The translations under genes were made by a program, and so were the position numbers. The notes beneath the pieces are model-generated. The model worked only from the letters and a program-made list of their open reading frames with translations, did no database searches and was not told the origin of the DNA. This document shows positions 9,400 through 61,150 of a stretch of DNA of 64,000 bases, piece by piece (within the stretch, counting starts at the first letter, position 1; every line of letters starts with the position of its first letter). Source of the DNA: Maylandia zebra (lineage: Eukaryota > Chordata > Actinopteri > Cichliformes > Cichlidae); NCBI RefSeq assembly GCF_041146795.1, contig NC_135174.1, forward strand, positions 21,786,878 to 21,850,877. The letters run 5' to 3'.

Positions 9400-9704
9400 A
9401 ATATAAAACAACGGTTCAAACCCGGGAGCGCGCACTCTTAACGGTTTGGCAATTGCGCGTACCCATGTAGGCCCTCCTCTTCCGCGTGCGTCTGGGAGAG
9501 CCTCAGTTGGTGTGGTCGGCTCGCGCTGCCTTTTAAAGCAAACTGACACGACATGCCATTTCCCACTCGGCCAGAGGACGGGACACGGTGAAGAGCTTTT
9601 GTGTCTCTCATTCTAACCCCTTTTCCTGTCGTCACCCCCATTGTCCTTGTTGTTGTTTAGTTCCCTTTTCTTTAGTTTGTTCACACGGTTAGCTAGTTTC
9701 AGTC
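9400..9704 (+). promoter_or_regulatory. glud1: glud1 CpG-rich promoter / 5' UTR region
   Basis: GC and CpG content rise sharply from about 9400 (for example CCCGGGAGCGCGCAC, TTGCGCGTACCC, TCCGCGTGCGTC) compared with the AT-rich DNA on both sides, and stay high through exon 1. There is no clear TATA box near the likely start. This fits a housekeeping-type CpG-island promoter with dispersed initiation. The transcription start itself cannot be fixed from sequence. Confidence 0.6.
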
Positions 9705-29082
<19,378 letters not shown>

Positions 29083-34913: not shown

Positions 34914-35000
34914 GACTGTTGAATGCTGGTGGTGTGACATTATCTTAATTTGAGCAGCTAAAGACTCTAAATCTCAGTAACTGTGAAAAACTGATGTTCT
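34914..35000 (+). pseudogene. glud1 exon-10 fragment, copy A
   Basis: Preceded by a preserved acceptor (CCTCTTGCAG), it matches glud1 exon 10 from the second codon on: LNAGGVTLS, stop, FEQLKTLN-like. The exon 10 TAT codon (Tyr) is TAA here, and GTATCT has become TTATCT. Similarity decays after about 90 bp. It cannot encode GDH. It lies about 0.35 kb beyond the 3' end of small-gene copy A, on the opposite strand. Confidence 0.85.
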
Positions 35001-35276
35001 GAAAGACAGTGTGCTGCAGTCCTGCTAGAATCAAGACACCATAAATTTTATGTTTGTAATCATAACATATTTACTTTTCCTGACACCAGTCTAAAACATA
35101 TGTATGTAATGAATAACAGAATTTAAAGAGAATAAAGAAGTATTGCAAATCAGAATAAAATATCCAGTATAATCACTTATTAAGAGTTCAAATACCCATA
35201 TTGATTTCTCCCCATCTAATGTATCCAAATAACAGAAAACTGAGGCTCTGTCTTTCCCTGCTTTTTTAAATTTTAT

Positions 35277-35723
35277 TTAGACTGTTTTTGTTTGTCCTGT
35301 TTCAGAATCAGGTTCTTCAACTTTCAATTGCTCCAATGTTTTCCACACCTGTTCTTATCTTCTCCTATTTGCGCTTCGTTTAATTGTGTCAAACCTGTTC
35401 TCAAATGCATCAAGGATTTCTTCTTTACCTTGAATCAAAATCTTTCCACTGTCAAATATAGACACAGTGCCTCCATCACAGAGCTCAAGTTTGAGTTTCT
35501 TGTTTATTTCCATTCGAATAGCGTTGGATTGAGGGTAAGCTTCTTCTATTGCAGCCCTGTAGTGTGCTCCAGAGTTGGTGAAGAAAATGAGGTTACATCT
35601 TACACCATTTTGTTTTCTGTCTTCATAGAGAACTTCTGGGTTTCCCATCAGAGTTTCTTCTCTGAATCCATTCCTTACCTCACCCTCCATTACTTCAGGG
35701 TAGTCAAAACGACGAGCTGGCAT
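35277..35723 (-). CDS. Unrecognised small gene family, copy A (122-aa frame, tail cut by stop)
   Basis: I do not recognise this family. ATG at 35723 follows a splice acceptor (TTTCATAG) directly. The 122-residue frame stops at TAA 35355-35357. It starts MPARRFDYPEV, continues with a charged region, then an apparent alpha/beta module (NLIFFTNSGAHYRAAIEEAY, later GGTVSIFDSGKILIQGKEEI and LDAFENRFDTIK). The same frame stays open for 25 more codons after the stop to a second stop at 35277-35279 that overlaps an AATAAA; the homologous tail is open in copies C and E, so this stop is a derived truncation. An upstream exon homologous to the E first coding exon (about 35830-35937) has its ATG out of frame. 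Either a shortened protein or a young pseudogene. Confidence 0.55.
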
Positions 35724-35829
35724 CTATGAAACATAGAATTATTATTATTATACGCAATTTAATGTTCCACTGATAAACTACATAACAAATTCAGCACTTA
35801 TAAATGTGATGTGGTGATATACATTTACC

Positions 35830-35937
35830 TTCAATGTTTCTTGTTCGTCATAAATCGAGATGTACTCAACTTCCAGGTGAAAAGGTGTATTTTCCTTACA
35901 CAGCACTTGCAGTAGTCGGTTCAGACTCCGAGTTCCT
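35830..35937 (-). other. Copy A, upstream exon (probable 5' UTR)
   Basis: Bounded by acceptor GACTTACAG and donor GTAAATG, the interval aligns with exon 2 of gene E and with copy B at about 40363-40470. Its only ATG (GATTTATGACG) opens a frame ending six codons later, so it would not join to the main exon in frame from that ATG. Confidence 0.5.
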
Positions 35938-36172
35938 GTAAGTCTAAAATTGATTGATTCTGTTCTTAAGCTGAGAAGAAAGAAGCTTTTAATAAATGAT
36001 GTTTTTGCTATAAAGACCTTCTTAAATACATCTAATCTCATAGACACGTTTCTATTTTACCCTTTAATCCTTGAACAACAATAAATAAAGACAATTGTCT
36101 CCACTGCTCTCCTAAGGTGTGGTGGCTGTACTCTGCGTATAAAATGTCCGTCTTCTTTTCAGATTTTTTTTT

Positions 36173-36361
36173 TACATATCTCAAAAAGCAATAGAAAAAG
36201 TCAGGAATGTGGTTTTCACACAGGGGTACACCGTGATGCCGGTAAAGCAGTTTCAGAGTCTCCAGAGTCTCCAGGTTGTTGTTTGTCAGTACGCCACCAT
36301 AGCATCTTTTACTTACACTTCAAAAATCTGCATTTGAAGAATTTGCCTGTGCTAATTCAGG
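36173..36361 (+). repeat. 187-bp direct repeat, copy 1
   Basis: From ACATATCTCAAAAAGC to GTGCTAATTCAG this matches 37325-37511 without a visible mismatch. Diverged relatives occur at about 41705-41815 and 42213-42320, so the block belongs to the amplified unit 5' of each small-gene copy. Confidence 0.9.
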
Positions 36362-36460
36362 ATCTGGAATTTGCACAGGCAAATGTGGAAAGTGTGTGTG
36401 TTTGTGTGTGTGAATTTGCCTGTGCAAATTCGGGATCTAGAATTTGCACAGGGAAGTGAA
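36338..36460. repeat. Two palindromic units of a GAATTTGCCTGTGCAAATTC type
   Basis: ATTTGCCTGTGCTAATTC at about 36341 and GAATTTGCACAGGCAAAT at about 36367 form an almost perfect inverted repeat around AGGATCTG. A second copy (GAATTTGCCTGTGCAAATTC, then GGGATCTA, then GAATTTGCACAGG) starts at about 36412. The outer words recur at 37490 and 42825. Confidence 0.75.
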
Positions 36461-36774
36461 AGATGTTATGATGGTGCAGTGGTCATAATGGTCACTTCAC
36501 AGCAAACCTGGGGGCTTTCTGTCTGTTTGTTCTCCCTGTTTTCTCCTTTTTCTCTTTACAGTGTGCTTTAATGTGCGCTTATCAAATAATTTCACAAAAT
36601 AATTTATTTTATCACAATCATAATATATTATTTATTATTTCACAGAAATATCATGGAAACCCTTTGAATACCAGAAGAAACCAAACAACTACCAGCATGT
36701 ACACAAATTTGAGCTGTAAAGTACAGAATTGACGCTTATAACATAGCAAACAAACACAAAGTGGTTATTCTTTA

Positions 36775-37244
36775 TCACTTCATCTTATGTTTTAAAATAT
36801 TTAATCTTTTGAACTTATAAAGAAAGAAAAGCTCAACTCTGCTAGAAACCTGCCGTGTCTTTCCTGGCTGAACATGTTGATCCTGGAGTTTTGCTCTTGC
36901 CAGTTGTTTGATTGTATTTATTGTTTTTATTTTGTCATTGAACCATTCTGTAAACTGTTTTTTCCCCCTGATCATTGCCATACACATCACCAGTTCTCCA
37001 TTATGATGCAATACAGTTTTGCCTTTACTGGTTGTATGATTTCGGTAGCAGTGACTTGTGTAGTCTCTGGCTTAAGATCTTCTGTTATTCACTGCATTAA
37101 TCTTTTTTGATGATTCGTTTGTAACTGCAATTTGTCCTCTTTTCCATTTCTTGTACTGACAATGAGTTTTTCTGGGTTTTTAGAGCATTCTTTACTTTTG
37201 GCATCCTTGTTGACCTTCTTTTCTTCTTCTTTGGTTAGTGTCAT
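36775..37244 (-). pseudogene. Small gene family, copy F (diverged, frameshifted)
   Basis: From ATG 37244 (preceded by acceptor CTCTCTAG) the frame reads MTLTKEEEKKVNKDAKSKEC and ends at a TGA after 50 or so codons; similarity resumes in another frame as VLHHNGELVMCM then KKQFTEWFNDKIKTINT. These align with gene E segments REKKKFREEE, MLHSNGECVIHV and GEFLTWFREKVKINV. So it is an ancient family member destroyed by at least one stop and one frameshift. It is closer to E than to A/B. Confidence 0.65.
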
Positions 37245-37324
37245 TGGAGCTAGAGAGATTTCTAGAGAGAAACAAAAAGAAATATATTGCCATGGTACTT
37301 CTTTTCAGATTTTTTTTATTTATT

Positions 37325-37511
37325 ACATATCTCAAAAAGCAATAGAAAAAGTCAGGAATGTGGTTTTCACACAGGGGTACACCGTGATGCCGGTAAAGCA
37401 GTTTCAGAGTCTCCAGAGTCTCCAGGTTGTTGTTTGTCAGTACGCCACCATAGCATCTTTTACTTACACTTCAAAAATCTGCATTTGAAGAATTTGCCTG
37501 TGCTAATTCAG
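37325..37511 (+). repeat. 187-bp direct repeat, copy 2
   Basis: Matches 36173-36361 over its whole length in the same orientation, about 1.15 kb downstream, with pseudogene copy F between the two. The identity implies very recent duplication or gene conversion. Confidence 0.9.
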
Positions 37512-37734
37512 AATATTATTTAATTATATTCTTTGTATTCATTCAAACTCTTCTGGCGAAGGGTGCTGGACATAGCACCCCCAAACTTAGGAGAACGAGA
37601 AAACAACCACAATAAAAACAACAAGCTCGTCATATTCCAAAAAGCGCATCTGAAGAGCATAAACTCATTCACTTTATATACAAGCACCAAATATCTAATT
37701 TGTCAGTTTGTAGTTCCAGTAGGCTGTTAGTGGA

Positions 37735-38178
37735 GTGGATGGTTATCTTCAGTTATTTGATCATTATGCCAGAATCTCTTAAATTCTGGCATAAGTATGA
37801 GGCCATTTTCCATCACTCACATTCTGTGGAGGTCATTAACAGTGAATATGCTGAATTCAAGTACATAATGAGGCAAAACTTAAACACGAGTCAATCAGTA
37901 CATTCTCAGATATATTGGCTGCAACAGTAAAATATGAGGAGCTAAAACACATCCCACAGCTTGTGGATATTTGTGCTACATTTCAAACATCCAGTGCAGA
38001 TTGTGGAAGAGGCTTTAGTTTAATGAATCGTACCAAAACAGCATCCAGAAATTGTCTTGAAGTGGACCATTTGGACCAGCTGATGTGCATGAAGTCAAAG
38101 CTGCAAGCAGACGAGGCCATCAACCTGGACAACATGTACAACCACTGGAGACGTGAGAAGGACAGACGGGAAAATTAG
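37735..38178 (+). pseudogene. hAT transposase C-terminal relic (ZBED/KRBA-like group)
   Basis: A frame at 37915-38178 includes ADCGRGFSLMNRTKTASRNC then LEVDHLDQLMCMKSKL. This matches the hAT dimerisation domain pattern (SAxxERGFSxMNRIKTxxRNRL, DHLDxLM), with the usual Glu replaced by Gly. A preceding segment (SVEVINSEYAEFKYIMRQNL) lies in another frame, so there is a frameshift near 37915. No terminal repeats or TSD found. Different from the hAT at 32.4-34.6 kb. Confidence 0.75.
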
Positions 38179-38461
38179 GGTGAAATTTAAGTTCTTAATC
38201 AGTTTAGTGCTTATTCTAGTGTCATTTATTAAGAATTTTCATGTATAATGGTTAATAGTCATTAAATGCTATTACCATGAGTAGTAGAATTTGTAATAAA
38301 AACTGTGTAATTATATATTTTGCAGAGTTAATGGAATTTTCAAATATCACATCCTTGCGCTATAGGCCACATGTGCAAAATGTGAAAGTTTTAATGTAAA
38401 CAAAATTTTATCTCTAAAAGATGTACATGCCTCAATTATTCCAGAGCAGGAGCCCCACCCT

Positions 38462-38900
38462 GACAACACATTAAGAGTCATTCTACACATCTGTTCATGC
38501 AGTCCACTCTAACTACTTAACAGGTAACTTCCATATGTCTTCCTTCCACACTGTGTTATTGTTCAAGTAGAATGCAGAGCCCTAACTGCCTTCACACACC
38601 CAAGATCTTATTTCTTCCAGCTGTCACTCATTTCTTCAAAGTATGGGTCAGTGCCATTATGGCATGTAGTGTTTGTGAGTGGTTCATGGGTGTGCCCAAT
38701 GAAGGTATTTCTTTTTAGTTTTTGTGAACGTGTACATTTGCATGTGAGATTTTACTGTTTGTCATGTGGTAGAGCAACAACACTAAACTGATGAAGAGGA
38801 AAAACCAGTCAGGCCAGTAAGGAACCTGCAACTTATTACTGAAACTTAGAAACCTGAAATCTGCTTTGTCTAACTTCTGTAGTTAACTTCTGAGGCCATC
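38462..38900 (+). repeat. Partial copy of the sncg 3' flanking region
   Basis: GAGTCATTCTACACATCTGT, TCATGCAGTCCACTCTAACT, CACTGTGTTATTGTTC, GTCAGTGCC..TGGCATGTA and GTGAGATTTTACT..ATGTGG.AGAGCAACAACAC follow 49150-49577 in the same order. CTGAAATCTGCTTTGTCTAA at 38850-38870 matches 50660-50680. Several internal pieces of the sncg-side sequence are missing, so this is a deleted, diverged segmental copy in the same orientation. Confidence 0.8.
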
Positions 38901-38934
38901 ACAGGGCAGTTGTGGAGCTGTTTTGCAAAGAAGA

Positions 38935-39256
38935 ACAGGCAAGGATTTCAGTCTCTAGATGTGCAAAGCTGGTAGAGACATACCCTAAAAGACTGGCAGC
39001 TGCAATTGCAGCAAAAGGTGGTTCTACAAAGTATTGACTCAGGGGGCTGAATAATTACACACACCCCACTTTTCAGTTATTTATTTGTAAAAAAATGTTT
39101 GGAATCATGTATGATTTTTGTTCCACTTCTCACGTGTACACCACTTTGTGTTGGTCTTTCACGTGGAATTCCAATAAAATTGATTCATGTTTGTGGCTGT
39201 AATGTGACAAAATGTGGAAAAGTTCAAGGGGGCCGAATGCTTTTGCAAGCCACTGT
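38935..39256 (+). mobile_element. Tc1/mariner-like element, 3' end fragment
   Basis: Ends with TTTTGCAAGCCACTGTA, the inverted form of the CAGTGGCTTGCAAAAG terminus frequent in fish Tc1/mariner elements. It carries the last transposase residues (DVQSW.RH.LKDWQLQLQQK-like around 38958-39010) and a subterminal GTCACATTACAGCCACAAAC in reverse. Only the last 320 bp remain. Confidence 0.7.
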
Positions 39257-39499
39257 ATACAGGCCTTTAGATTCATGTTTGAGCAGTGTCATTTGGCTCA
39301 ACCAGTAAGTAGCTAGAAGAACTGGTAAGAGCCATTAATAGATGTAATACTTATTTAAAAGTTTTAAACAAAGGGAATGTCCACAGGTTAGACTTTTGTA
39401 TGCATGATATTTTATTTATACAACTTAGCAAAAGCAAAGCAAAATCAATAAAATATAAAATAATATCCCATGTTTTATCTTAACCTAACTGATCTGCAG

Positions 39500-39609
39500 G
39501 ACATGTACCTGAACGCTGATGCTGTGACATTATCTTAATTTGAGTGGCTGAAGATTAAATCTCATTCATCTCTGTGGAAAACTGACCTTCAGATATGAGA
39601 CGGACCTCA
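39500..39609 (+). pseudogene. glud1 exon-10 fragment, copy B
   Basis: The best preserved fragment: acceptor GATCTGCAG, then DMYLNADAVTLS, stop, FEWLK, and the exon end followed by GTGGGTACAAA where glud1 has GTGAGTACAAA. It shares TAT to TAA and the TTATCT change with copy A, plus a small deletion after the FEWLK codons. Not able to encode a GDH segment. Confidence 0.9.
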
Positions 39610-39864
39610 GTGGGTACAAAACTATAATTCTTCAAACCTACAGACTGAAAGAGATTCATATTTGTAATATGAAATATGATATAAAAACAATGATATATCA
39701 AATGAACAGCAGAATTTAGAAGAGAATAAAGATTATACAGGTATTGAAAATCAGGCTAAAATATCTACTAATTTTTAAACACAAGAAACGAAAACTTTAA
39801 TATTCACTTATTAATGTCCGTATTGTTTCTGCTGTTTCCTGCTTTTTCTTATTTGTATCACATT

Positions 39865-40278
39865 TTATTTAGACTGTTTCTGTTTGTCCTGATCTTCTGT
39901 TTCAGAATCAGGTTCTTTGACTTTCAATTGCTCCAATGTTTTCCACACCTGTTCTTATCTTCTGCTGTTTACGTTTTGTTTAATTGTGTCAAACCTGTTC
40001 TCAAATGCATCAAGGATTTCTTCTGTACCTTGAATCACAATGATTCCACTGTCAAATATAGACACAGTGCCTCCATCAAAGAGCTCAAGTTTGAATTTCT
40101 TGTTTTTTTCCATTCGAATAGCGTTGGATTGAGGGTAAGCTTCTTCTATTGCAGCCTTGTAGTGTGCTCCAGAGTTGGTGAAGAAAATGAGGTTACATCT
40201 TACACCATTTTGTTTTCTGTCTTCATAGAGAACCTCTGGGTTTTCCAGAGGTTCACTATGAAAACGACGAACAGGCAT
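39865..40278 (-). CDS. Unrecognised small gene family, copy B (107-aa frame, tail cut by stop)
   Basis: ATG at 40278, frame to TAA at 39955-39957. Compared with copy A it lacks an in-frame block after MPVRRF (A residues 8-26) but keeps NPEVLYEDRKQNGVRCNLIF and the following module with about ten replacements. After the stop, 29 further codons remain open in the same frame to the TAA at 39865-39867, overlapping an AATAAA. The same nonsense codon at the same place as copy A shows it arose before the A/B duplication. The upstream exon copy (40363-40470) has lost its ATG. Possibly transcribed; a functional protein is uncertain. Confidence 0.5.
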
Positions 40279-40661
40279 CTATAAAACATAAAGCAATTAT
40301 TATTTTTACATAATTTCATGTTCCACTGATAAACTGTAGATGTGATGTGGTGATATACATGTACCTTCAATGTTTCTTGTTCTGTTCTAAATCAAGATGT
40401 ACTCAACTTCTAGGTGAAAAGGTGTATTTTCCTTACACAGTAGTAGTCGGTTCAGACTCTGAGTTCCTGTAAGTCTAAAATTGCTCTTTTGTTTCCTGAG
40501 TAACGGAAGAGCCACTCCTTCAAACACTCCTGTTAAACAAAGGGAATGTCCAACGGTTAGACTTTTGTATGCACTGTATTTTATTTCTATAAATTAGCAA
40601 AGGCAAAGCAAAATCAATATAATATAAAATAATGTTTTATCTTAACCTAACTGATCTGTAG

Positions 40662-40745
40662 GACATGTACCCGAATGCTCATTTTGTGACAAGACTAAAT
40701 CTCATTCATCTATGTGGAAAACTGAGTTAAACTCCCACCTGCTCA
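40662..40745 (+). pseudogene. glud1 exon-10 fragment, copy C
   Basis: Acceptor GATCTGTAG, then GACATGTACCCGAATGCT as in exon 10, a deletion of the middle, and an end (AACTCCCACCTGCTCA followed by GTGAC) matching the last codons and donor side of exon 10. It retains the 3' end that copy A lost. Confidence 0.85.
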
Positions 40746-41046
40746 GTGACTACAAAACTAAAATTCTTCAAATCTACAGACTGAAAGACATTTTCATATT
40801 AATAATATGTTATGCAATACACTTACTTTTCCTTGACATCATTGTAAAACAATACATATATAATAATATATCTAACAAACGGCAGGATTTAAAAGAGAAT
40901 AAAGATTATAAAAATATTGCAAGTCAGACTTAAATATCTAATAATTTTTAAACACAAGGAGCAAAAACTTTAATATTCACTTACTAATAGTTCAAATGTC
41001 CATATTGTTTCTGCTGTTTCCTGTTTTTTTCTTGTTGTATCACATT

Positions 41047-41480
41047 TCATTTAGACTGTTTCTGTTTGTCTCGTCCTTCTGTTTCAGAATCAGATTCTTC
41101 AACTTTCATTTGCTGTAATGTTTTCATCATCTGTTCTTCTTTTCTTGTGTCTACATGTTGTTTCATTTTGTTAAACATTTTCTCAAATGCATCAAGGTTT
41201 TCTTCTGTACCTTGAATCTAAATCTTTCCACTGGGAAATATGGACACAGAGAGTTCAAGTTTGAGTTTGTTGTCCATTTGAATATCCTTCAATGCTTCTT
41301 CTATTGCAGCCCTGTAGTGTGTTCCAGAGTGGGTGAAGAAAATGAGGTTACATCTTATACCAGTTTGATATGTGTCTTCATAGAGAATCTCTGCGTTTTT
41401 CCCATCAGAGTTTCACGTTTGAATATTTTCTTTTCCTCATCGTCCATTCCTTTAGGTTAGTCGAAACGACGAGCTGTCAT
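41047..41480 (-). pseudogene. Small gene family, copy C
   Basis: From ATG 41480, directly after acceptor TTTTTTAG, the frame MTARRFD meets an in-frame TAA at the position of the DYP tyrosine, and several frameshifts follow. The C-terminal tail, however, is intact and open (KEEQMMKTLQQMKVEESDSE and onward, to TGA 41047-41049), showing that the ancestral family protein had this charged tail. Clear pseudogene. Confidence 0.75.
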
Positions 41481-41976
41481 CTAAAAAACATAAAACAATT
41501 ATTATTTTTATGCTGATAAACTATTTAATAAATTCAGCACTTATAGATGTGATGTGGTGATATAAATTTACCTTCGATGAAGTAATCAAAAGCTTTTATA
41601 ATAAGTAAAGACAATTGTCTCCGCTGTGGCAGCACAGATGTAAATCCTTCCAAATGTCTTCTGTGCTCTGAGTGTACAATGTCCGTCTTCTTTTCAGATC
41701 TTTTAAATATCTCAAAAAGTGACAGAAAAAGGCAGGAATGTGTTACCCACACAGGGGTCAATCAGTCTCTTGTATAGTTTTTCCAGAGACTCTGGAGTCT
41801 CTCCAGTTTTTGGGCTGTTTTTGTTAGGACAGTTTGACACACACAAACACAACACACACAGACACTCACACTTTCCGTCCTATTGGAACATTCAGTGCTT
41901 TCCTGTATTACACAACATGCCTGAACAGTGCTCTACTGCACTTCCTTTTTTCTATCAGATCATGTTTAAGTACTTT

Positions 41977-42001
41977 CTATTCTATTCTATTCTATTCTAT
42001 C
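41977..42001. repeat. CTATT pentanucleotide microsatellite
   Basis: About five tandem CTATT units between copies C and D. Confidence 0.9.
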
Positions 42002-42375
42002 TAGTCTTATTTATAACATTGATTAGGTTTATATCACATGATGAATGAATGCATGAATGAAAATGTCTGGAGACAAGTTTTGTTTTACCCTTTAATCCTT
42101 GAACAACAGTAAGTTAAGATAATTGTCTCCGCTGCTCTCCTAAGGCGTGGCAGCTCAGATGCAAATCCTTCCAAATGTCTTCTGTACACCCAGAGTACAG
42201 AAGGCACCTAAAAGGCAGGAATGTGTTACCCACACAGGGGTACACGGTGATGCCAGTAAAGCAGTTTCAGAGTTTCTCCAGAGTCTCCGGGCTGTTGTTT
42301 GTTATTACAGTTTGACACACACAGTCAGTATAAGTTACAAACGAAATTAAAAAATTACAAAGTCATTGCTCTCAT

Positions 42376-42660
42376 CTAATAAAATGTCCAGCTCAAAAAA
42401 ACTCTATTATGATTTAGTTTGCTTTTTGTATTAAATTTGATGATGAGATTTACTTTATTTGTTGGCCTTATGAAGTTGCTGCCAAGTTTGAGTTTGTTGG
42501 CCATTTGTGTAGGTTTGGATTTGGGGTGAACTTTTCTATAGCAGCTCTGCAGCTGTCTCCAAAACAAAAACGTTTGGATTTTCATTCATAGCTTCAGTTT
42601 GAGTCATTTCCTTTCCACATCTGTTGTTGCTTTTGGGTAGTCAAAACAATGACCAGACAT
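42376..42660 (-). pseudogene. Small gene family, copy D (heavily degraded)
   Basis: ATG at 42660 follows acceptor CTTTTAG; the frame starts MSGHCFDYPKATTDVERK and hits a stop. The F/Y-D-Y-P start and charged run parallel gene E (MTPQQYDYPNKSATDREKK). Downstream, pieces such as LFWRQLQSCYRK in shifted frames align only loosely. Non-functional. Confidence 0.65.
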
Positions 42661-42722
42661 CTAAAAGTAAAGCATAAAACAAAATCATTGTTTATATGAA
42701 ATTTTATGCAACTGATACATGC

Positions 42723-42726
<4 letters not shown>

Positions 42727-42791
<65 letters not shown>
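42727..42791. repeat. (GT)n microsatellite, about 32 units
   Basis: Uninterrupted TG dinucleotides over about 64 bp, upstream of copy D. Likely highly polymorphic. Confidence 0.97.
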
Positions 42792-42792
<1 letters not shown>

Positions 42793-43173
42793 TGTGGGGA
42801 AGTACCTGGTGTTTTTTTCTTGCACAGGCAAATTCAGGCTCTAGAGTCCCGCTCATGATTCTTTGACGTCACCACCCAATAGAATTCATTGTAAGTTTCA
42901 CTTGTTATTGGTACAAAATAAATTGAACTTTAACTGTTTTTTGTGTCAGAAAATGTTTCAGGTTGTTTCAGTTCATGCTGAGAATAAAGAAAAACTTTAC
43001 TAAACTCTAAGCTTTTACAGAAAACAGTTTAGTTGTAACTTTCAGCCTTTCCTGTTGTTTCATCTTATATAAAGCTTCTCCCCAACAAACCATCCTACTT
43101 TGGCAAAACGTCCTACCATAAGTATGCACATTTCTGCTGTCACAGAGTAATTCCAGCACAAATGTAAGTAGGT

Positions 43174-43325
43174 ATGACGGTTTGCCACTTAACTTTACCC
43201 ATCAGAGTACGCTTGTAGCTCATATTCATAAAGCCAGGACGGTTTGGCACTTAATTTTACCCATCAGAGTATGTTTCTAGCTCTTATTAACAAAGGTAGG
43301 ATGATTTGTCACTTAATTTTGTGTC
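43174..43325. repeat. Minisatellite, 62-bp unit, about 2.5 copies
   Basis: The phrase GACGGTTTGCCACTTAACTT, then TACCCATCAGAGTACG and GTAGCTCATATTCATAAA, recurs with substitutions at a 62-bp spacing (starts near 43176, 43238 and 43300). Located between copies D and E. Confidence 0.8.
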
Positions 43326-44262
43326 GTGCGCATGCGCAGAAACAACGGGTAGGATGGATTCCCAGAACACCGTATCCTAAAATTAAAAAAATATATTATT
43401 TGAATAGTATTGTGTCTTTGTTTGGTTTAAGAAATTAGAAGATGTCAAGAAATTTATTCTAAAAGACATTTCTTCAGCTGAGAGTCTGAAAGGTAGAAAC
43501 ACACTGTAGTTTTTACTTGCAAGGGCGGTCACAGAGCGCTCACACAAGAGTGGGGGCCCTGTGATGTGCACGCTCTGTTCTTGCACTTGTCTTTATTCAG
43601 ATACAAAAATAATACAACAGTGAATACGTCTATTCATAGACAGAGGAATGTTAGTGCGTATGTATGTGTGTATGCAGGTGTATGTGTGTGTGTGATTCTG
43701 AAGGACGCGGCCCCTCTTCTTGTTAGGGAGCGCAGATAAAAGTGTCCAGCTCTCCTCTTCCTGGTAGGAGTGAAACTGCTTGTTCAGCTATTATCGCTGT
43801 GGGAAAGAATTTATAAAACAGAAACAAGTCTTGTAGTGGACAACAGTCTAAGTCATAAAAAGGTCATCATGCAGTATTCTATCACATGTAAACTTATATC
43901 ATTAAAAGCTTATACTGACTACTAAGTACAATTTTCCATTGACAGAAGACAACCAGTCAAAAAGCCACTGCTCTTAGTCCAGCCTCTAAACTGCTGTCAT
44001 TATAATTTAATTTTATTGGTTGTTTTGAAATTTCATTATATGGAAGCTCCTTTTCCATTAAGTCAACATGTATCCCTCATATACAAAAAATTTCGAGAGA
44101 AGGATGTTGGAGCTTCTCTGTATCCAGACAGAAAAATCCATCTGGAGTATCTAAAACACTCTGAAACCTGCACTTTTAACCCTCGCAGATTACTTATAAC
44201 AAGTATGACTGAAAATAAGGAAAAGAAGGAAATGTTTTTTTTTAAACGTTTTAATTTCCAAA

Positions 44263-44268
44263 TTTATT
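44263..44268 (-). terminator. Candidate polyadenylation signal of gene E
   Basis: AATAAA on the - strand (TTTATT on +), about 355 bp past the gene E stop, the first canonical signal downstream. It would give a 3' UTR of roughly 370 bp. Confidence 0.5.
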
Positions 44269-44621
44269 TTGAACAGGTGCAGTGAAGCAAACAAAAAGTA
44301 AAAATTTCCAAGCACAGTAAATCAAATGTTTACACATATTATCTTGTCAATTCAAAGAAACCCCCCCCCCACACACACACACAAAACTGCAAGCATGCTT
44401 GACAACAAACAGCAGTTCTGATTTACACTCTACAGATAAGGTTTGATGACATAATATTTCATTATATGTGAGCTGTGGAAGGGTGGTGCTTTTTAGAGGC
44501 AAATCACGACAACAGTTGCTTCAGGACAATTTATATTGTAAGGTGAAGACCTTGCAATGACACAGAGAAAACCCCAACAATCACATGACAACCAATGAGC
44601 AAGGTTGTAGTATTTTCGTTG

Positions 44622-45139
44622 TTACTTTTTTAATGTCAACTCTTTCATTTTTTCATTTAGGTCTTCTGTTTTTTGATCTTCTTGCTTTACGTTAATTTTG
44701 ACTTTTTCTCTGAACCATGTGAGAAATTCACCCCTTTTCTCATTTGAAACATGTATCACACATTCTCCATTGCTGTGTAACATTATGGTGCTTTTGTCTG
44801 TGTCATATTTGTAAGTGATTATTTTTTCAGTTTCATCACCAAACTCCTCTTTTATCCAGTTTCTCCATTTTTCTGGATCTTTAGTATAAAACTGGTATTT
44901 ATCATCTCTCGATTTTCTTTGATTTACAAACAGCTGTTCAGGTCTGCGCGCTCTTTCTTCCTCTCTGAATTTCTTTTTTTCACGGTCTGTTGCGCTTTTA
45001 TTGGGATAGTCATATTGTTGAGGAGTCATCTAAAAGAAAAGATAAAAATTGCATGAGCACATTTATTTTACGCCATATCCTCAGAAATCTTGTATTCAGT
45101 GCTCACAGTTCCACTGGTGTTTCTTGTGTTTTCTGCCAT
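44622..45139 (-). CDS. Unrecognised small gene family, copy E (apparently intact, 146 aa)
   Basis: I do not recognise the protein. Coding exons 45107-45139 (MAENTRNTSGT, ATG in a good context with G at -3 and +4) and 44622-45029, spliced GTGAGC to TTTTAG in phase 0, give 146 residues. Order: a variable N-terminus; YDYP motif; Lys/Glu-rich helix (DREKKKFREEERARR); compact module with YQFYTKDPEKWRNWIKEEFG, MLHSNGECVIHV and FLTWFREKVK; Lys/Glu tail ending ELTLKK. No signal peptide, membrane segment or cysteine cluster, so probably cytosolic or nuclear. The module resembles the A/B products in pattern (F[FY]T..., G-V-I, final amphipathic helix ending in K). It has the only complete promoter-to-tail structure in the array, so it is the likely functional, parental-like member. 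Confidence 0.7.
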
Positions 45140-45196
45140 TTCTTTGAATCAGTTAACTTGGTTTGAAGAAGAGTCGACTGATCCCACAGCGGCTTC
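45107..45196 (-). other. Gene E exon 2 (5' UTR plus first 11 codons)
   Basis: Bounded by acceptor GCACTCAG and donor GTGAGC. Start codon at 45139. The non-coding first part (GAAGCCGCTGTGGGATCAG) matches the corresponding exon of copies A and B in position and partly in sequence. Confidence 0.6.
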
Positions 45197-45623
45197 CTGA
45201 GTGCAAAGGCAAACCTTAATCATTTGTACCAGATATCATATGTTCTGTTATTCAATCTAAGCTGCACGCAAGTCATAAAAACCATTGCCAAAACAAACAA
45301 ACAAAACATGAATGAATAACAGTAAATTACCTGAGCTTGCACATCCTGGTGTCTTAAAGTCTAAATAAATCTGTTTCCAATTAAAATTGTGCTGGTTGAA
45401 AAGCTAGTATTAATAATTTGTTTTCCAACCCTGTTTACCTTTTCCCTCATAATGATGCCCGTGGTTACACATTTACTGTTTTCAGGTGTTCCCATGGTAA
45501 ACTTTCAAATTCAGGTTTTTTTTAATCCTCTATTATTTTTAGGTTATGACGTCATTAAAGTGTTTCTGAGTATAAAATAAACAAACGGAGAGTTAAAGAC
45601 ATATAAAAGGATCTGTTACTTAC

Positions 45624-45719
45624 TCAGTCTACTGCTTCAGGCAGAGTCTGTGATTTTGCTGTTTCTCGAGCGTAGTCCAAGAGAAAAGACCTGCTGACGG
45701 CTTCTTTTCCCCTTTTATA
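45624..45719 (-). promoter_or_regulatory. Gene E TATA promoter and non-coding exon 1
   Basis: On the - strand, GTATAAAAGGGG (TATAAAAG at 45712-45719) is a textbook TATA box. A start about 30 bp downstream, near 45685, would give a roughly 60-nt non-coding exon ending at 45624 before the donor GTAAGTAACAG. The exon is inferred; the TATA box and donor are seen. Confidence 0.55.
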
Positions 45720-46529
45720 CTTTCTCCCTTTTTTTTATTTATTTAATTTTTACAAACAGCCAATCATAGAGCAGAATCAGTGTTCACCAGGGACTGCAAA
45801 TAAATACAAAGAAATGTGTTTCTGTAAAACAAGTTAATCTTCACCTTCATACAGTTTAACCAAACACACACACACACATTAAAGTTTATTGAGTATTTTT
45901 TGCCTGCTAGCTGTAGCATGTTTAATACTAGAGGAGGTTGCCATGGTGAAGTGGGAGGAGTTTTCTTCATATTACATTGAGATGTTTGCGCCGTACAGGG
46001 TGTAAGATGACCTGAGGGATGGACTGAAGAGCCAAAAAGGAAGTTTAAACCACCATCCTCAACTGTTTGGACCAATCATGTTAGCATTCTGTTTTTATGA
46101 CACATCAAAGTATTTACTGCCGGGATGTGGTGCTCTTTTCTTCGTTTGGGTCTCCTGAGCAAAGGAAGAGACATGGAGTCGTTTTGAATCAATAAAAGCA
46201 ACCAGGCAGTGTGAGCACTGCTGCTAGATAGACTTATTCTGCTGTACTTTAGTACTTAAAACCCTTTGTACATCGTGCCTCATCTACCCTGATTCACATA
46301 ATCACTTTTTTTTCAATGCATAAGCGCTTTCTATCTAAAATTCACACACATTCTCTCTACAATATATCAGAGAGCAACTTGGAGTTTATTGCTTGCCCAT
46401 GGTGTTCATTAGGTGCACACTCATTGTTAGGTTCTATTCAATGATGTGAATAAGGGTGGCATGTTGGTGCAGTGCTTAGCAGTGTCCCTTCACAGGAATG
46501 TGGAATTAAGTGAATGTGGCTGTAGGATA

Positions 46530-52800: not shown

Positions 52801-55800
52801 TGGTTGACCAGCCCGGTTGATGCAGCAACGTTCTCGACTCCCTCCACACCCGCCTGCGCCACCTCGTTGGCTCCTGCAACCGCTGTTTCTCCGACAATGT
52901 TGGCCTGATCCACGGTCCTGTTGGCCACTGAGACGTGGAGAGCGAAAGAGGGTTAGTGTGTAAACTGCACTGTGAGAAAACAGTCCTGATTTTCACCTCA
53001 ATGTGAAAATCTGTGCAAAGCTCTTTCCAGGACTTTGAAAAGATCAGATGGGGATGGGACAGGAAATCAGAACATTTGATCAGGAAAAGTGGTATGCAGT
53101 GTAGACAACATATTCAGATTAGTGTGTAACCATCTGCCCTCATACAGGTGTATTACCTGCCAAGTAGAACTGTAAATAAATATTTACACCTTTTTTCTCA
53201 AGTAAAATTCATAACCCTGCTAAAGTAACCTAAGAGTACAAAGGTTTTAGCAATTAAAGTACCTAAAGTAAAAGTACTCATTCTACAGTGTTGCTTGAAA
53301 ATAGTTCATTATTCTCTAATGATTCATTAATGTGTGTTGTAAGCTATACAATAAAATACATTATATCACATAACGTAGCTTTTTATTTCAAGTACTGCAG
53401 AGTAGAAGTAGATGGTATCATAACAAAGAAGTACTTAAAGGATAAGCTTGTACGTCACTTGAGTGATGTGAATGTATTTTCCAGTACTATTTATGCTATA
53501 ATCCTATTGATGCTTTCATCTAAGAGTGTTGGGCATGAACAGTAGTCTACCACAGTGACCCTAACTTTAGTGTGGAGTAGGCTTGGGCAGTGCCACCTCA
53601 TGGCCCCCCCTATGGAGACACCCCTGAAACTAAGTTGATACATTGGCCTCATCACAGAAGAGCCTTTTCACATATATAATTTGCTAAACCAGAAAGATAG
53701 TGTTATTCACTTTTATTTTCTTTATAAAAAGCAAAGTTTAAAAACATCTTGAAACCTGAAGTTTGTCTTTCACACACAAATGACGCTGTATAAGAGGGTC
53801 CAGAGCAAACAACATCAGCCTGCTCAGTGGAGGACAAAGTGAAGTCTCCAGATCCTTTAGCACAACTGTAATGTCATTATTTAAAGTAATATTAAAAGTA
53901 ACAGCACTAAACATTAAAATCCTTCGGTAAACATCTTATTTACTTTTTCTATATGACAGTTAAAGCTTTATGCAGCTCTGTTATTATCTGTATGGATTAG
54001 AATAAAATCAGGATTTTTCTTATTTCTACTTGGCCATAGTATTATTTTAGTAATAAGCAATGAACCACATTTGGGTCACCTGGAAGAGGACACCTGGTAT
54101 TTAAACACATTTCTGATGATTGTACCTCTAAACGTGTATCCAATGAACAGTTTATTTGTACATACTGCTCTTATTTGATTTATACCAAAATTCAATATTT
54201 ATGCTTTTCATATCTTAAATTTCTAGATACAAAAAAGAAGTAATTTGAGAAATCAGATCAGCATCTACAGAGCATTTAAGCCTTTATCTGTTCAAAATAA
54301 AAGGTTATCATCATCATCATCATCATCAACATCTGCACCTGCTAGTTGCAAAATCAAATTGAGTGACACATACAGTAGGTGGCATCTGTGCTTTATCAGA
54401 AATATTTTCAAACTTTATTTATGTATTTTTTATTTTTTTCGATTTTACTAGAGAAAAAAACTTCAACAATGAAGATTAACTGACGGTTAACCATCCCACC
54501 TACCTATGTTACAAAACATACCCTTGTAGCCATCTGGGACTTTATACCATTCAAGTGTGACTAAGAGCTCCTTGTTCTAAGAACCAGAGTGTTTCAGCAC
54601 AGTGCTTAAAGGTGTAGCCATGAATTCAGTGCTGAAGTATGAATATATTCGGATGTTGTTTTTGTAATAAGAGAAGGGATCATAACGAACTCTTCGGGAC
54701 AGCAATCACTTCATATTCAGACAACAAACCTCTGCATTCTCCCCTCAGAGGTTTCTGTTTCTATATTTATATGATCTTAATAGTGGCTCAAACATGCAGC
54801 TTTTCTTACCTGTGTTTACTGATGACACCACTCCCTCCTTTGTCTTACTCCCTGCAGACCAAAAAGGAAAAACAGACTCATATTCATGTACATGACTCAT
54901 GCATGTTTCCTGTAAAATAAAGAGACACATTTCACACGCCCTGTTTCTCCTGTCTGTGGTTTCTTTCCTCAGTAAGTAAAACAGTCAAATGAAACATAAA
55001 CTATATAATAGATTTGTTATTAATGAATAATGTAGGAATAAGAGCAATGAGAGTTACATTATTAATAGCCTAATAGTAGCACATTTAATACACCAGTGCA
55101 TTAAATGTTGTCAGAGAAATATCATAAAATGTTGACGGCAGATATTGCTTAAGTATTTTTGGACATTTCTCAGCTGCTGTTGCCCCTTTAAACTCTGACA
55201 TAACATTCCCAAGAGTCTCAGCTCAGCGTGATCCATTACTGTTTCTAAAAATACATTCACAGACCTACTTTTGCTCACAGTTTTGTCAGTCTGACTGGTA
55301 TGTTGTGCGCTTTCCTGCGTCCTCAAAGGGTTTTGCCTTCTTAAATTTTTTTAATAAAGTCTGGACTGTTTAAAGATCCTGTTATCTTTACCACTAGCTC
55401 TAAAAAAGCTCCTTTCACTTGGAAACATTTTATTTAATTGGAAGTCATCCTGTGAATGGGCTGCAACAGCCGCACGTCTCTGTGTGTGCCTTCCTGCTTT
55501 CCAGCCCTGTGCTCATTACAGTATGATCCCAGCAGATTAAATTGTGGTTATGTAATCTGCCAACGTTAGGGATGACAGGAGGGAAGTATCAGAGCTAAAA
55601 GATAAGAACAGTAGAAAGAGTGAGAGGAAGGTAAAAAGGAACTAATGGAGGAAAGGAAGGCTACATCTGCAGATGAGTAAACTGACTGCACTCTTTTTTA
55701 TAGTCACATAGATGCAGCTGCTGCCATTTACAGTGTCCCACATCCAGTCAGCCTTGCTACCTTCTGCTTCCCTCCATCTTTCAGCACGTTCCCCGTGGTA

Positions 55801-58596
55801 CATGAGCCACGTGCGGGGTACTGAGCAGTACTGCAGTACAGCTCATCGCAGGCTGCAGTGACACAGCTTCTTTCTCAGTCAACAGGGGGAGCCCCCCTCC
55901 CGAGTGTCACTGCACGCCGTGACTATTTCAGCTGAAGAGCTGATCTGCCTGTCACCAAACAAGCCATGCCTGTGAAAGAATACATGACTTCTGAGGAAAC
56001 TTTGCTTTATGATTTATCGAGTAACTCATAAACATCTTTTTGTAATAACGCCGATTCCAGCTGAAGGTGATGCACAGGACACAGCTGATCAAATGACAAG
56101 AATAAGAACAAAAACGCAATTGTTGAAATAATCCTTGTAATAAATTATAATCCTGATTGGAGGCATGCCTGAGTACACAAAGACGGCATGGATTAGAGCG
56201 TTTGAATGCATTTTTACCCATTATGAAATGATGCGTTAAACACAGAGAAATACAGCTTTTTTTCCAGAGGAGGATTTGCGCTTCAGCAATCCTGATGTGG
56301 TGAAAAATCCTGTTAACTGTGAATCCTTATGTGCTCTCAGCTAAAGAAAGATGCAATTTTACACACCTATATATAATCAACAACACGCTGTATTACCATA
56401 TACATACAAATGAAAAAGGAAATTCATATTCCGTATTGCAAATACATCGTGTTAAATTTACAGGGCAGAAAAAAAAATCATGCTAATTGATTTCTTTCTA
56501 AAATAATTGCTATATATGTTGGTATATTTTCATATTATTGCAAAAATAAACACCTAGAATTTTTAGATTGTGTATTTTGGATTTTTCATGAATCTCTTTA
56601 AACAAAAGATTGTAATGAAACCATCAGTGATTACCAAAACACCGAATTAAATCTTAAAAGCAAAAATAAAGGGATTGATAAAATCACATGAAGTTAAATC
56701 TCTTAATTAAAAGTTAAAACTTAAGTTTTGGAGCTGTTTTGCGGCAGAAGCTTTTAAAAATAAATTAATAAATCACTGAGCATGTTGCTGTGTTTGTCCA
56801 GGTCTGGCCCATGTGGTGGAAAGCAGGCGTGCAAACCTTGATACTGTGTACTGACAGCCACATGCTGACGTAGGCACTCTGCTGCAGGTGGATACAGTGA
56901 AACCATTGACACTCTTCACTGATCACATCCCCTCTCCCCCTTCTGATCCTCCCCCTGTGATCTGCGTTGTTCCCTCTCTGTCTCTTGCTTCACCTTTACC
57001 CCCTTTCTCTTGCTTCCTTGAGCTTGTGACCACTGTCTACTTCCTGGAAGATCCAGGGTTTCTTTACCCAGCAAGTCTCAGCCCTCTGTCCCAATGTGTC
57101 ACCTGTCTTTCTCCTCCACGAGCCACGAGACTACAAGCTCAAAGCTTTTGGTGACATAACACCCCTCCCTTCATTTTTTTACCCCCTCTTTTCTCTCTCT
57201 GTCTCTCTTTCCTGCATCCCTCCGTTCTTCCATGTCTCCCTGGGGTGGGTGTTTTGTGAGCTGTGGGGGGTGGAAGGAAGGAGCACTCACTGGGAGGCCA
57301 ATCCTGCTGCTGTGACACCACAAACTAACACAAGCACACAAATGTTTTTGCGTCCAGCACAAACCGATGAGGGTAGAGCGTGCGGGAGAAGGAGGGTGGG
57401 GGTGGAGGGGTTGTGATAGAGAGAGAGAGCAAATTGCTGCAGTGCTCAAATGATCCTTGCCCTAACTCACCCCTCCCTCTCCAGCTTGTGCCGTTGACTT
57501 CCCCCTTTTTTTCATCATTATGATTAAAATTTTGTAGTTGCTGCATGACGGTCAGACAGAGCACTGACAGGATAGACAGCAGACAACGATGGAGCCCTCC
57601 ACTCTGATCGTTCCTCACCCACCCTCCTTACTTTTGCACCCCCTCTGGCCTGTCCCAGGTGGTGTGAAAGCCTGCTGCTTGGGATAACCTTGAAACGTGA
57701 CGCAGTGGCAGCTTGAGCTATAATTAAAGTGCAGGAAACAACAGCATCTGTGCAAAGCACCCGAGGTAAAATATAAATGAATCATTTTTCTTGGGCATTT
57801 AAAATTGTATTTCCTCTTACACTTACATCATCTTGCGTCTTGCTGTGAAATGATTCTTTTTAAGTGTTTAAATGCTTTTTATAACACTTTTCTAAATATA
57901 TTTTTTTCTTTTAATTATGAATGTAAGTCAGCTCTATTCTGTAAATTTAATTTAAAAAAAATCAGATAAATTGACACTCTGGAAACCAGTCCATCACTGG
58001 ACATCCCCATCCAAACTGCTTCACAGACCAGTGATTTAATATAGTCACGCTGGTCAGGTGATGAAAGCCCGAGGAAGCGGCGTCACAGAGCTCTGCAGTG
58101 ACCTCCTTTCCCTCCTTTTGCTCTTCTCTTTTGCTTTTCTTTTGCTTTCCCCCCAAACATCCACTGATCACTGTCCTGCTGCAAAGCTGTAACCCTCACT
58201 GTCTTTTCCTCGCTGTTTCTCACTGTCCACCCTCTGGACCCTGCACCAGTCCTGCAGCAGTATCCCACCAGCACTCACTCCATCCCCTCCTTCCTGCCTT
58301 CTCTTCTCTTTTTCCTCCTCCTCCTCTATCTGTTCCTCTCACAAGTCTCAGACATGGATCCCAAATCATATGATGCAAAAAGTACACGAAGTAATTCCAC
58401 ATATAGACCAAAAAATGAGTGCACCTCCCCCCCACAACCCTCCAAACTCTTTTTGCTGCATGATATATTACATACCTACATACATTACCCCCTCCTTGGT
58501 CTTAGCTGCTGCTTCCTCCATGCCAGCTTTGGTCTTCTCTGCGGCGGCCACCACCCCCTCCTTGGCCATGGAGAACCCCTTCATCAGTACATCCAT
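49871..58596 (-). CDS. sncg: sncg, gamma-type synuclein (5 coding exons, whole gene span)
   Basis: Synucleins are small presynaptic/neuronal proteins whose N-terminal 11-residue repeats fold into an amphipathic helix on acidic membranes and vesicles. Coding exons in order: 58476-58596, 54810-54851, 52800-52927, 51120-51161, 49871-49879, all GT-AG, giving 113 aa. The first two exon sizes (121 and 42 nt) follow the vertebrate synuclein plan. Residues 1-41 start [20 protein letters not shown], with KTKEGV-type repeats at 10-15, 21-26, 32-37 and 43-48 and the conserved VMYVG at 37-41. The acidic tail is short ([16 protein letters not shown]). MDV rather than MDVFM, and position beside glud1, favour gamma-synuclein; human SNCG is 127 aa, so the tail is shorter here. 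Fish can carry two gamma paralogues; not resolved. Confidence 0.93.
49880..51119 (-). other. sncg: sncg intron 4
   Basis: AT-rich, no gene recognised. Contains, near 50646-50700, the counterpart of 38841-38900. No transposon assigned. Confidence 0.55.
51120..51161 (-). CDS. sncg: sncg exon 4
   Basis: 42 nt, [14 protein letters not shown], phase 0 at both ends. Acceptor CTCCCACAG, donor GTAAGA. Glycine/glutamate-rich start of the acidic tail. Confidence 0.88.
51162..52799 (-). other. sncg: sncg intron 3
   Basis: Contains a 23-base C homopolymer (51862-51884) and an adjacent A/C-rich, CAAA/ACAAA-type region (51970-52130). Open frames here are low-complexity artefacts. Confidence 0.6.
51862..51884. 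repeat. 23-base poly-C run
   Basis: An uninterrupted cytosine homopolymer in sncg intron 3, the longest in the window; G-quadruplex or i-motif prone and liable to length error. Confidence 0.95.
52800..52927 (-). CDS. sncg: sncg exon 3
   Basis: 128 nt encoding [20 protein letters not shown] then [20 protein letters not shown] and VNQ. This corresponds to the hydrophobic central segment (NAC-like). Acceptor CGTCTCAG, donor GTTAGT (non-consensus at +3, but still GT). Phase 1 in, phase 0 out. Confidence 0.92.
52928..54809 (-). other. sncg: sncg intron 2
   Basis: AAGTAAAAGTACTCATTC and TTGAGTGATGTGAATGTATT (about 53190-53490) resemble the subterminal repeats of non-autonomous fish hAT elements. 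Also a (TCA)n run near 54307-54330. No gene. Confidence 0.5.
54810..54851 (-). CDS. sncg: sncg exon 2
   Basis: 42 nt, [14 protein letters not shown] (first and last codons split with neighbours), carrying a KTKEGV repeat. Acceptor GTCTGCAG, donor GTAAGA. The size and phase (1-1) are those of the homologous vertebrate exon. Confidence 0.95.
54852..58475 (-). other. sncg: sncg intron 1
   Basis: 3.6 kb. The part from 56900 to 58350 is strongly pyrimidine-rich on the + strand (many CTCCCTCC-type runs), which produces several long but meaningless open frames. No gene or recognised transposon. Confidence 0.55.
58476..58596 (-). CDS. sncg: sncg exon 1 (start codon)
   Basis: 121 nt; ATG at 58596 gives [20 protein letters not shown], then [20 protein letters not shown]. 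Donor GTATGT. The upstream frame is open but has no synuclein similarity, so the start at MDV is chosen from homology. Confidence 0.95.
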
Positions 58597-61150
58597 GTTG
58601 GGCGATGAAACAGTTGGGCTCCCCTGCTCCAAATGGGCCTGGCTGGTTGGCTGGCTGGTGCTTACAGTGAGCGTGCAGAAGTGATGCTGTGAGATGTCAG
58701 AGTGTGTGGCTGGGTGAGTATGTGTAAGTGCCTGTTTCCTGGTGGCTCCTCCTCCCTTTGGTGCTCCAACAGAGGGCTGAGAGGAACACACAGCAGGGCT
58801 ACAGCACTCAGACTGAGAGAAACAGGAGGGCGGATACAGCCAATATGTAAAAAGATGGGGAGAGGAGGAGGAGAGGCAGCCGGATGCTGCAGCATTTTCA
58901 AGTCATGCTGCAACCCCGCCCCTTTAGTCATCCCTCCACTCTCGTCCATCTTTTCTTCTGGTGACTCTCTCTCATGCTCAGCTCAGCCTTTGGCTATCTG
59001 TTTGCATATTTTGATTGGCACGCTTTGCTCTGGGCACACCTTTGTAGATGCTGAGGCTCCATGCGCTGGTTACATAACCGACAGATCCTCTTGTCAGATC
59101 ATATGCATCCTTAAATTTTGCAATGTAATCTGCAGTTGCATCACAGAGCTTGTCCCAAACATTTGCTTCCTTTGTTTTTAATTTCTTAGCAAAATGTTCT
59201 CAGTTGATACTTTATTTATATGTTTTTCTATTCTTTTTACTTATAGTATTGCTGTTTATATTAATGCTTTGCCATCAGCTCAGATTTTTTTATTTTTACC
59301 ACTTGAGCTGAATCAGAATGCATTAAGAAAGACAAAGAGAGCATCTACAGCTATTTCTGTGGTTGTGATTGGAGAGAAATTGCTTTGTCATCTTCACCTG
59401 AATGAGTCACAACAGCCCCGCTCTTCCTCTTCCTCCTCCTCCTCCTCTTTCTGTTTCACTCAGACATGCCGATTCAGCAGTGCAGTGATTCTGAGTGACA
59501 TTGATATCACAACCAGGGTTTGAAATGATCCGGAACCTTCAGCACCTTCAGTCATTAAATCTGAGGCAGGTTAAGGTAATTTTCCGTGTGCTGCTGCCTG
59601 GTGTTGCTTCCAGTGAAAACATGGAGATATACTTGCTCAGTAATAAAAACAAAAACGTCCCACGACCCGCTACACCCTCAACACATCCTTTTTTCTTCTC
59701 GTCCCTGTGATGCGTTCGCGGTGCACATGTAAAGTTGGAGTGACATGCAGTGAAACGCACAGGAGAAGAAATGTGAGATTATTTTCAAAAGTTTAGCTTT
59801 TAAATCACACATTGGATCCGTACTTGGTATTTTGCTGTTTTTGTGAAATATCCTGCAAAATAAACTGTACTTGAATAATAATTTTGTGTTAGTCAAAGGT
59901 TTAATGAAGATACTAGGCTACATTGGTTGGTTTGCGGTAGTGTAATAAAGAATACACTGATTCACTGTATTGGACTAGTGCAGAAGAGGCTGTGGTATTC
60001 ATGTAAGGCTGTAGGAAGGGTAGCAGACATCGATTTCTAATAAAGGTGATGATGCACACTAGATTCAATCACTGAATTCTACTTTATATTGTGCATTTGT
60101 TGGATATCAGCTTGTAAAACATCTGCAAATCAACGAAAAGTAATCAATATCAGAGTCATGTGACTTATCTACAGGTTATTCCTCACCAGCTAAATCCCAC
60201 TTTACACAAGCTCCATTTTTTTTTCAAAAAACAAAACAAAACAGTTGTTTGATATTAAAATGTTGGCAAGTAGGAACATAATTATATTCACTGTATAATA
60301 CTAGATAAAGGAAGGGATGAAGCTAGAACACCGTGATCCATGAAGCGCTGTTTTGCTGTTGCAGAGGCGGAGGGTCCCTCCTTCAGGTCTTTGACTGCCC
60401 TCTGGTGTTCACAGGACTCATCGCATCATGACGCAGCATTATGGCAGTGATGGGGGGTTATTTAGACTTCAGCTGTTAAGTCATAAGATGTATGATCATC
60501 AGTCACTGATGCTGTTTGCAAATCTTTTGTAGCCAAGTCCAAGTCAACGTGCACGACTATGAACGATAAACTGTTTACCTGAAAAGAGCCTTGCTGGTAG
60601 CCCCCCTTCATGCAGTTCCCCTCTGCTCTGCAGAAGTTTTCTTTCTAGAAATTGAATTTTTGGTTCTGTATTTTAATATTTTTTGTTGTGGCCTCACTGG
60701 TCAAGTCCATGTTTGGTGTGTCAGTTTTCACCAGAAAGTGCAGAAACATTAGGTAGCTGGTTGGGGAGCGAATAGCAGAAAAACACAGCCAAATATCTTT
60801 GTCATGTGTTGGTGAAGAAACAGAACTAAACAAAGAGTTAATATTGTTAACCCCTGGATGCTAACTCACTGCCACAGTATACACTGCTAAAAAATTTGAA
60901 AGGGGGATTTTAGAGTACAGCATCCAGCCAATCAATCTGGTCAGTTAAGTAGCAGAGGGAGTTGTTTTTGCTGCTTTGGTATCAATGAAATTAAAAACAG
61001 GTGCACAAGAGAGGCAACAATGACACAACCCCCGAAGACAGAAATGATTTTACAGATGGAGGTCACTGATATTTTTTCCCACCTCATGTTTCCCGTTTTT
61101 TCATTAGCTTTGCATTTGGCTGTTCTCGGTGTCACTACTGGAAGTATAAG
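58597..61150. other. Region between sncg start and Tc1 relic
   Basis: 58600-59000 should include the sncg promoter and 5' UTR; no TATA box was picked out. A CTCCTCCTCCT run lies at 59420-59450. The rest (59.5-61.1 kb) is unique AT-rich DNA with no gene recognised, and no LIM-domain exon was seen on the - strand. Confidence 0.5.

Follow-up and report, generated by a model that had tools for sequence, protein, structure and literature searches.

Among the described systems closest to the locus reported here are single TBP lobes and the Gig1-like genes of fish. In the parts of two papers that were available, bacterial single TBP lobes bind nucleic acid in double-stranded form (PMC7221094; PMC3710099), and the single lobe of RNase HIII touches the RNA-DNA hybrid, the residue at position L5.1 being aromatic (PMC7221094, PMC3710099); the available part of one of them describes single lobes from bacteria and also mentions viral TBP homologues (PMC7221094). 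For the Gig1-like genes, the accessible portion of the source reports three genes in tandem that begin with a short exon, are regulated by interferon and are assigned to PANTHER family PTHR38706 only, and salmon gig1-like proteins of 222-240 amino acids (aa) whose frame lies on exon 2 (PMC12247413). Here we analyse a stretch of 64,000 nucleotides (nt) of the Maylandia zebra genome (the window: C8:21786878-21850877 of a 962-Mb genome in 63 contigs; positions without a contig name are counted from its first letter), which holds an array of small related genes between glud1 (+ strand) and sncg (- strand).

The array of related copies is real, and one of them, copy E, is the only one likely to work now. 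Our preferred explanation, held tentatively and short of probable, is that the array is a single-locus orphan tandem family of proteins resembling a single TBP lobe, which would probably bind nucleic acid. The array was not found in print in the literature searched, and it may well already have an entry as an uncharacterised locus in some genome database; it goes unmentioned in the passage on neighbouring genes in the available part of a paper on the origin of synucleins, and no family like it is named in the accessible part of a review of fish interferon-stimulated genes.

Array structure and distribution

Six related units on the - strand (A-F) were confirmed, all in the places where the original prediction had put them, and the self-comparison of 34-46 kb shows them as repeated units: identity was 82% between A and B (693 nt), 76% between B and C (927 nt) and 78% between A and C (577 nt), and E and F matched each other by tblastn (E-value ~4e-6). 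Judged by sequence, the units fall into two groups, A, B and C with the remnant D, and E with F. D shares the start codon at a splice acceptor, the FDYP segment, the upstream unit described below and a worn remnant of the core, which is 74% identical to A across 87 nt. No blast match was found between A and E. The score of their local alignment with BLOSUM62 was reached by 4 of 2000 shuffles, and the local BLOSUM45 score and both global scores were each reached by none of 2000; on these alignments, A and E are related at the protein level.

The common features of the main exon had been predicted as an ATG at or just after the acceptor, usually an [FY]DYP motif, and a Lys/Glu tail, and each of them stands in part. 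The acceptor-ATG start is common to A, B, C, D and E and is absent from F; the FDYP segment extends to D, DYP is lost in B, and F has no FDYP; the tail is kept in C, and A and B stop before it. E and A each have a short exon ahead of the main exon, and alignment shows one for B as well. Open reading frame (ORF) length alone is little proof, as the window holds many open frames of 110-170 aa, some of them antisense to the copies. Three - strand ORFs of at least 105 aa with the ATG directly after AG were observed in the 12-kb region; 300 dinucleotide shuffles gave a mean of 0.003, and none reached three. Adjoining duplicates at one locus, some intact and some broken, support the proposed tandem family in birth and death. 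The estimate of at least six copies also held, with an addition outside the range 34914-45719 for which it was made: a seventh relic in a glud1 intron (~26500-26630, - strand; 84% to A over 38 nt and 78% to C over 51 nt), in two pieces split by a short insert. The two 10-kb flanks of the window held no copy (tblastn, E-value 1).

Searches of the genome score the best candidates only and can miss diverged copies (the glud1 relic was unlisted). Within that reach, the A protein had three matches (A, B and C only), the E protein two (E and F only), the exon-intron DNA of A three, all in the array, and the upstream unit four places, again all in the array. Matches are thus confined to the array locus, so the copies are no dispersed transposon as far as the searches reach. 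Pfam searches with A, B, E and pieces of C and F gave no transposable-element family above cut-off, and the transposon-protein match which would have spoken against the family did not appear. Among viral contigs the query A had 13 pattern matches, none of them confirmed, and among phages it had none. That the array gene is part of a transposon or virus-derived protein is therefore very improbable, although a broken fragment of the C-terminal dimerisation region of a hAT transposase (PF05699, E-value 1.6e-5) lies within the array at 37855-38178; this fragment is on the opposite (+) strand and outside the repeated unit.

Copy E and the decay of the other copies

Copy E is the sole copy that looks complete from its sequence, with CCAAT and TATA boxes, two upstream exons and 146 residues. 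Its main exon (44622-45029, - strand) is intact, with 135 codons and a stop, and its ATG stands straight after an AG acceptor. Exon 2 (45107-45196, - strand) has a short 5' leader, an ATG at 45139, 11 codons (MAENTRNTSGT) and a GT donor, and joins the main exon in phase to give the 146-aa product, with splice sites placed by the GT-AG consensus. Exon 1 (45624-45690, - strand) is non-coding, with the donor GTAAGT running from 45623 down and a presumed 5' end ~30 nt below the TATA box. The sequence TATAAAAG (45712-45719) and an inverted CCAAT (ATTGG, 45760-45764) we take to be the core promoter elements of E (45712-45764, - strand). The open frame, in-phase exons and both boxes bear out the earlier view of E as intact, and we infer from the promoter and splice sites that E would be transcribed and spliced.

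This gene structure can be set beside that of the Gig1-like genes (PTHR38706), which, in the available part of their description, are likewise small and tandem, led by a short exon and lacking any known domain, a similar style of locus (PMC12247413). The array could belong to an effector family of the Gig1 type, specific to fish and induced by interferon, with small tandem genes that change fast, or be a divergent Gig1 branch. The two differ in length and exon layout, in a comparison made by description and without Gig1 sequence: the array proteins have 107-146 aa, and in the model proposed for E the main frame is on exon 3, unlike the salmon gig1-like genes. There was no exact GAAANNGAAA interferon-response site at 45020-46200, and the ten such sites in the window (5.8 expected) fall within the range of shuffled sequence (9 of 100 shuffles reach ten). 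We consider a Gig1-type origin improbable.

Copies A and B are open and shortened. The main exon of A (35355-35723, - strand) has 122 codons and a stop, without the tail that C encodes; its exon 2 (35829-35935, - strand), bounded by a CAG acceptor and a GT donor according to the splice consensus, is apparently homologous to exon 2 of E, and its ATG opens a short frame that ends before the splice. The main exon of B (39955-40278, - strand) has 107 codons and a stop; a deletion near the N-terminus leaves it 15 residues shorter than A and without the DYP motif, and it stops early as A does. As A and B share the stop that removes the tail, and the DNA beyond it still aligns with the tail of C, either their ancestor was already shortened or gene conversion shortened both. 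A and B may encode truncated proteins or be young pseudogenes.

The other copies are pseudogenes: C (41047-41480, - strand), with two in-frame stops, a frameshift and the Lys/Glu-rich tail kept; D (42376-42660, - strand), a remnant with the start and the FDYP segment, a stop soon after FDYP and the worn core trace; and F (36775-37244, - strand), the copy nearest E, with an internal stop and a frameshift. An upstream unit lies behind A (36042-36363, - strand), with copies, at approximate positions, behind F (~37298-37514), C (41602-41758) and D (42071-42308); it was not found behind B or E, and is thus present for four of the six units. The upstream units of A (36152-36363) and F (37298-37514) are 97% alike, yet blastn gives no match between the genes behind them, a pattern suggesting a recent partial duplication or gene conversion. 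An ORF in the upstream unit (36038-36319) was considered as PANTS-like (E-value 0.15) and rejected, as the aligned DNA of C and D, read by eye in that frame, meets a stop at one and the same position in both.

The ratio of nonsynonymous to synonymous change (dN/dS) between intact copies had been proposed as a check, and conflict or immunity as a possible background to the rapid change of the protein ends; the numbers show neither positive selection nor conflict. A and B differ by 2 synonymous and 12 nonsynonymous changes over 58.3 and 226.7 sites (dS 0.035, dN 0.055, ratio 1.6); neutrality predicts about 3 synonymous of these 14 differences, and with 2 seen the change is not distinguishable from neutral. 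The ratios were 1.3 for A-C and 1.8 for B-C, C being a pseudogene, and none of the three comparisons demonstrates positive selection. Over 116 codons of A and E, the proportions of synonymous and nonsynonymous differences were 0.83 (pS) and 0.51 (pN), a ratio of 0.62; when these codons were paired at random the ratio was ~0.98, and 0 of 1000 pairings were as low as the observed value. Part of the gap is built in, since the alignment was picked by protein similarity, which itself lowers pN. The comparison suggests past constraint at the protein level between A and E. The locus might instead be functionless debris of a once-active gene, the last copies including E now decaying: three of the six copies are clearly broken (C, D and F), two are truncated (A and B), and the A-B change cannot be told from neutral. 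The preserved frame, exons and promoter boxes of E, together with the past constraint suggested by the A-E divergence, argue against it, and we hold this reading to be unlikely.

Fold of the core and its candidate relatives

The Pfam searches with A, B, E and the pieces of C and F gave sub-threshold matches only, and NCBIfam searches with A, B and E gave nothing, so that no named family fits, as the original prediction had said. Searches of A and E against the PDB by phmmer gave no credible relative; the low E-value of 6een, a designed protein, arises from the summing of repeats, and no single stretch of it passes. The core module already noticed in the better copies is predicted in the E model, at moderate model confidence, as strand-helix-three-strands-helix, with a charged helix predicted at the N-terminus; the models of A and E have one core each.

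A TBP lobe is defined by its topology of five strands and two helices. TBP was the commonest named family among the 50 VIA-align matches listed for the E model, and TBP, RNase HIII and RnlA together made up about half of them. The predicted core order and the motif of A recall TBP (PF00352): IFDSGK of A stands in the same register as IF-x-[ST]-G-K in the TBP-type genes of this genome. The motif is lost in E and F, and TBP has two joined pseudo-symmetric lobes in one chain, whereas a single core of ~75 residues is found here, at protein lengths of 122 (A), 107 (B) and 146 aa (E); the array proteins thus lack the two lobes of the TBP family. They also differ from RNase HIII, with its N-terminal domain (DUF3378, PF11858), and from RnlA in that no nuclease or HEPN domain was found in them, and in being encoded by fish genes, whereas those proteins are bacterial in the available parts of the sources (PMC7221094, PMC3710099).

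Several results weigh against a TBP lobe: the A-TBP sequence score was no better than that of a reversed control, the fold scores were middling, and Foldseek prefers eIF1 for the E model. PF00352 scored 12.1 bits on A, below its gathering score of 22.9, and the array was absent from its 13 matches in the genome; the profile A1 gave only ~5 bits against the TBP exons of this genome. TBP was not among the matches listed for the A model (the best 50 of 569 by Foldseek, the best 50 by VIA-align), which excludes nothing. The degenerate codon pattern F-x-x-GKI-x-x-QG occurred in A and at one place on contig C22, taken as chance. One TBP-domain match in the genome, with the motif IFRTGKIICLG, lies ~9 Mb from the array (C8:30829154-30829419); others are on C1, C15 and C19.

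The Foldseek result raises the alternative of a real orphan family with another small alpha/beta fold, eIF1 (SUI1)-like or a generic plait, that would act via protein contacts, for example with ribosomes or immune signalling proteins. Chains of 40S/43S initiation complexes, taken as eIF1, held ranks 1-6 and 8 for E (best E-value 0.020, prob 0.89); eIF1 is named in the titles of ranks 2, 3, 4 and 8, and archaeal initiation factor 1 is at rank 12. The lack of any family-library match above cut-off and the only moderate confidence of the E model also leave room for it. The superpositions on ranks 1-6 and 8 were poor (root-mean-square deviation 5.6-8.2, TMq 0.27-0.30), no sequence match to eIF1 was seen by phmmer of A and E against the PDB, and the motif IF-x-SGK in A speaks for a TBP lobe instead; eIF1 was not named among the best 50 VIA-align matches for E, which excludes nothing. 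We regard another fold as possible, if doubtful.

Under the single-lobe explanation, which we tentatively prefer, a main exon would follow one or two short leader exons, with the upstream stretch shared by A, C, D and F and a promoter of its own in E. In the protein, one compact strand-helix-three-strands-helix core would stand between a charged helix at the N-terminus, predicted for E, and a charged tail. This core would be a TBP-like lobe of the helix-grip type, comparable to the domain with which RNase HIII binds its substrate and to the N-terminal domain of the toxin RnlA. We hold the TBP-lobe identity of the core with moderate confidence. Acting without an enzyme domain, such a lobe would bind double-stranded nucleic acid or occupy a partner of such lobes; by analogy, nucleic-acid binding is weakly suggested as the likeliest activity. 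If the motif alignment is right, position L5.1 is Phe in A, B, C and the relic and His in E and F, so that binding seems more credible for the A group than for E, while the intact gene is E. Foreign nucleic acid, double-stranded or hybrid, could be what the proteins bind, or they could serve as a decoy of the transcription machinery that DNA viruses use; a defence role is speculative. The wider claim that fish carry free-standing, locally expanded single TBP-lobe proteins, with neither nuclease nor second lobe, we would on present grounds not expect to hold. Were the core a TBP lobe, the half-TBP module of bacterial RNase HIII and RnlA would occur in animals too, as a gene on its own with rapid turnover, and E would be one concrete gene in which to study nucleic-acid binding and immune induction. 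Were it not, the locus would still be a neat case of orphan family birth and death between two old neighbours.

Neighbouring genes and minor features

The predicted flanks, glud1 and sncg, were borne out by domain matches in the flanking ORFs. An ORF at 9693-10109 carries the Glu/Leu/Phe/Val dehydrogenase domain of glud1. The ORF at 58471-58902 on the - strand matches Synuclein (E-value 1.7e-20), and more sncg exons were recognised by motif near 54846 and 52841. An Rfam scan of the window gave no match. In what we read as a glud1 intron, a long open frame of 659 aa (15581-17557, + strand) encodes a reverse transcriptase of the long interspersed nuclear element (LINE) type (RVT_1, E-value 7.7e-38). 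An imperfect short tandem repeat lies at 43155-43320, with two adjacent 62-nt copies that are 76% alike, or 84% over 83 nt when the frame is shifted.

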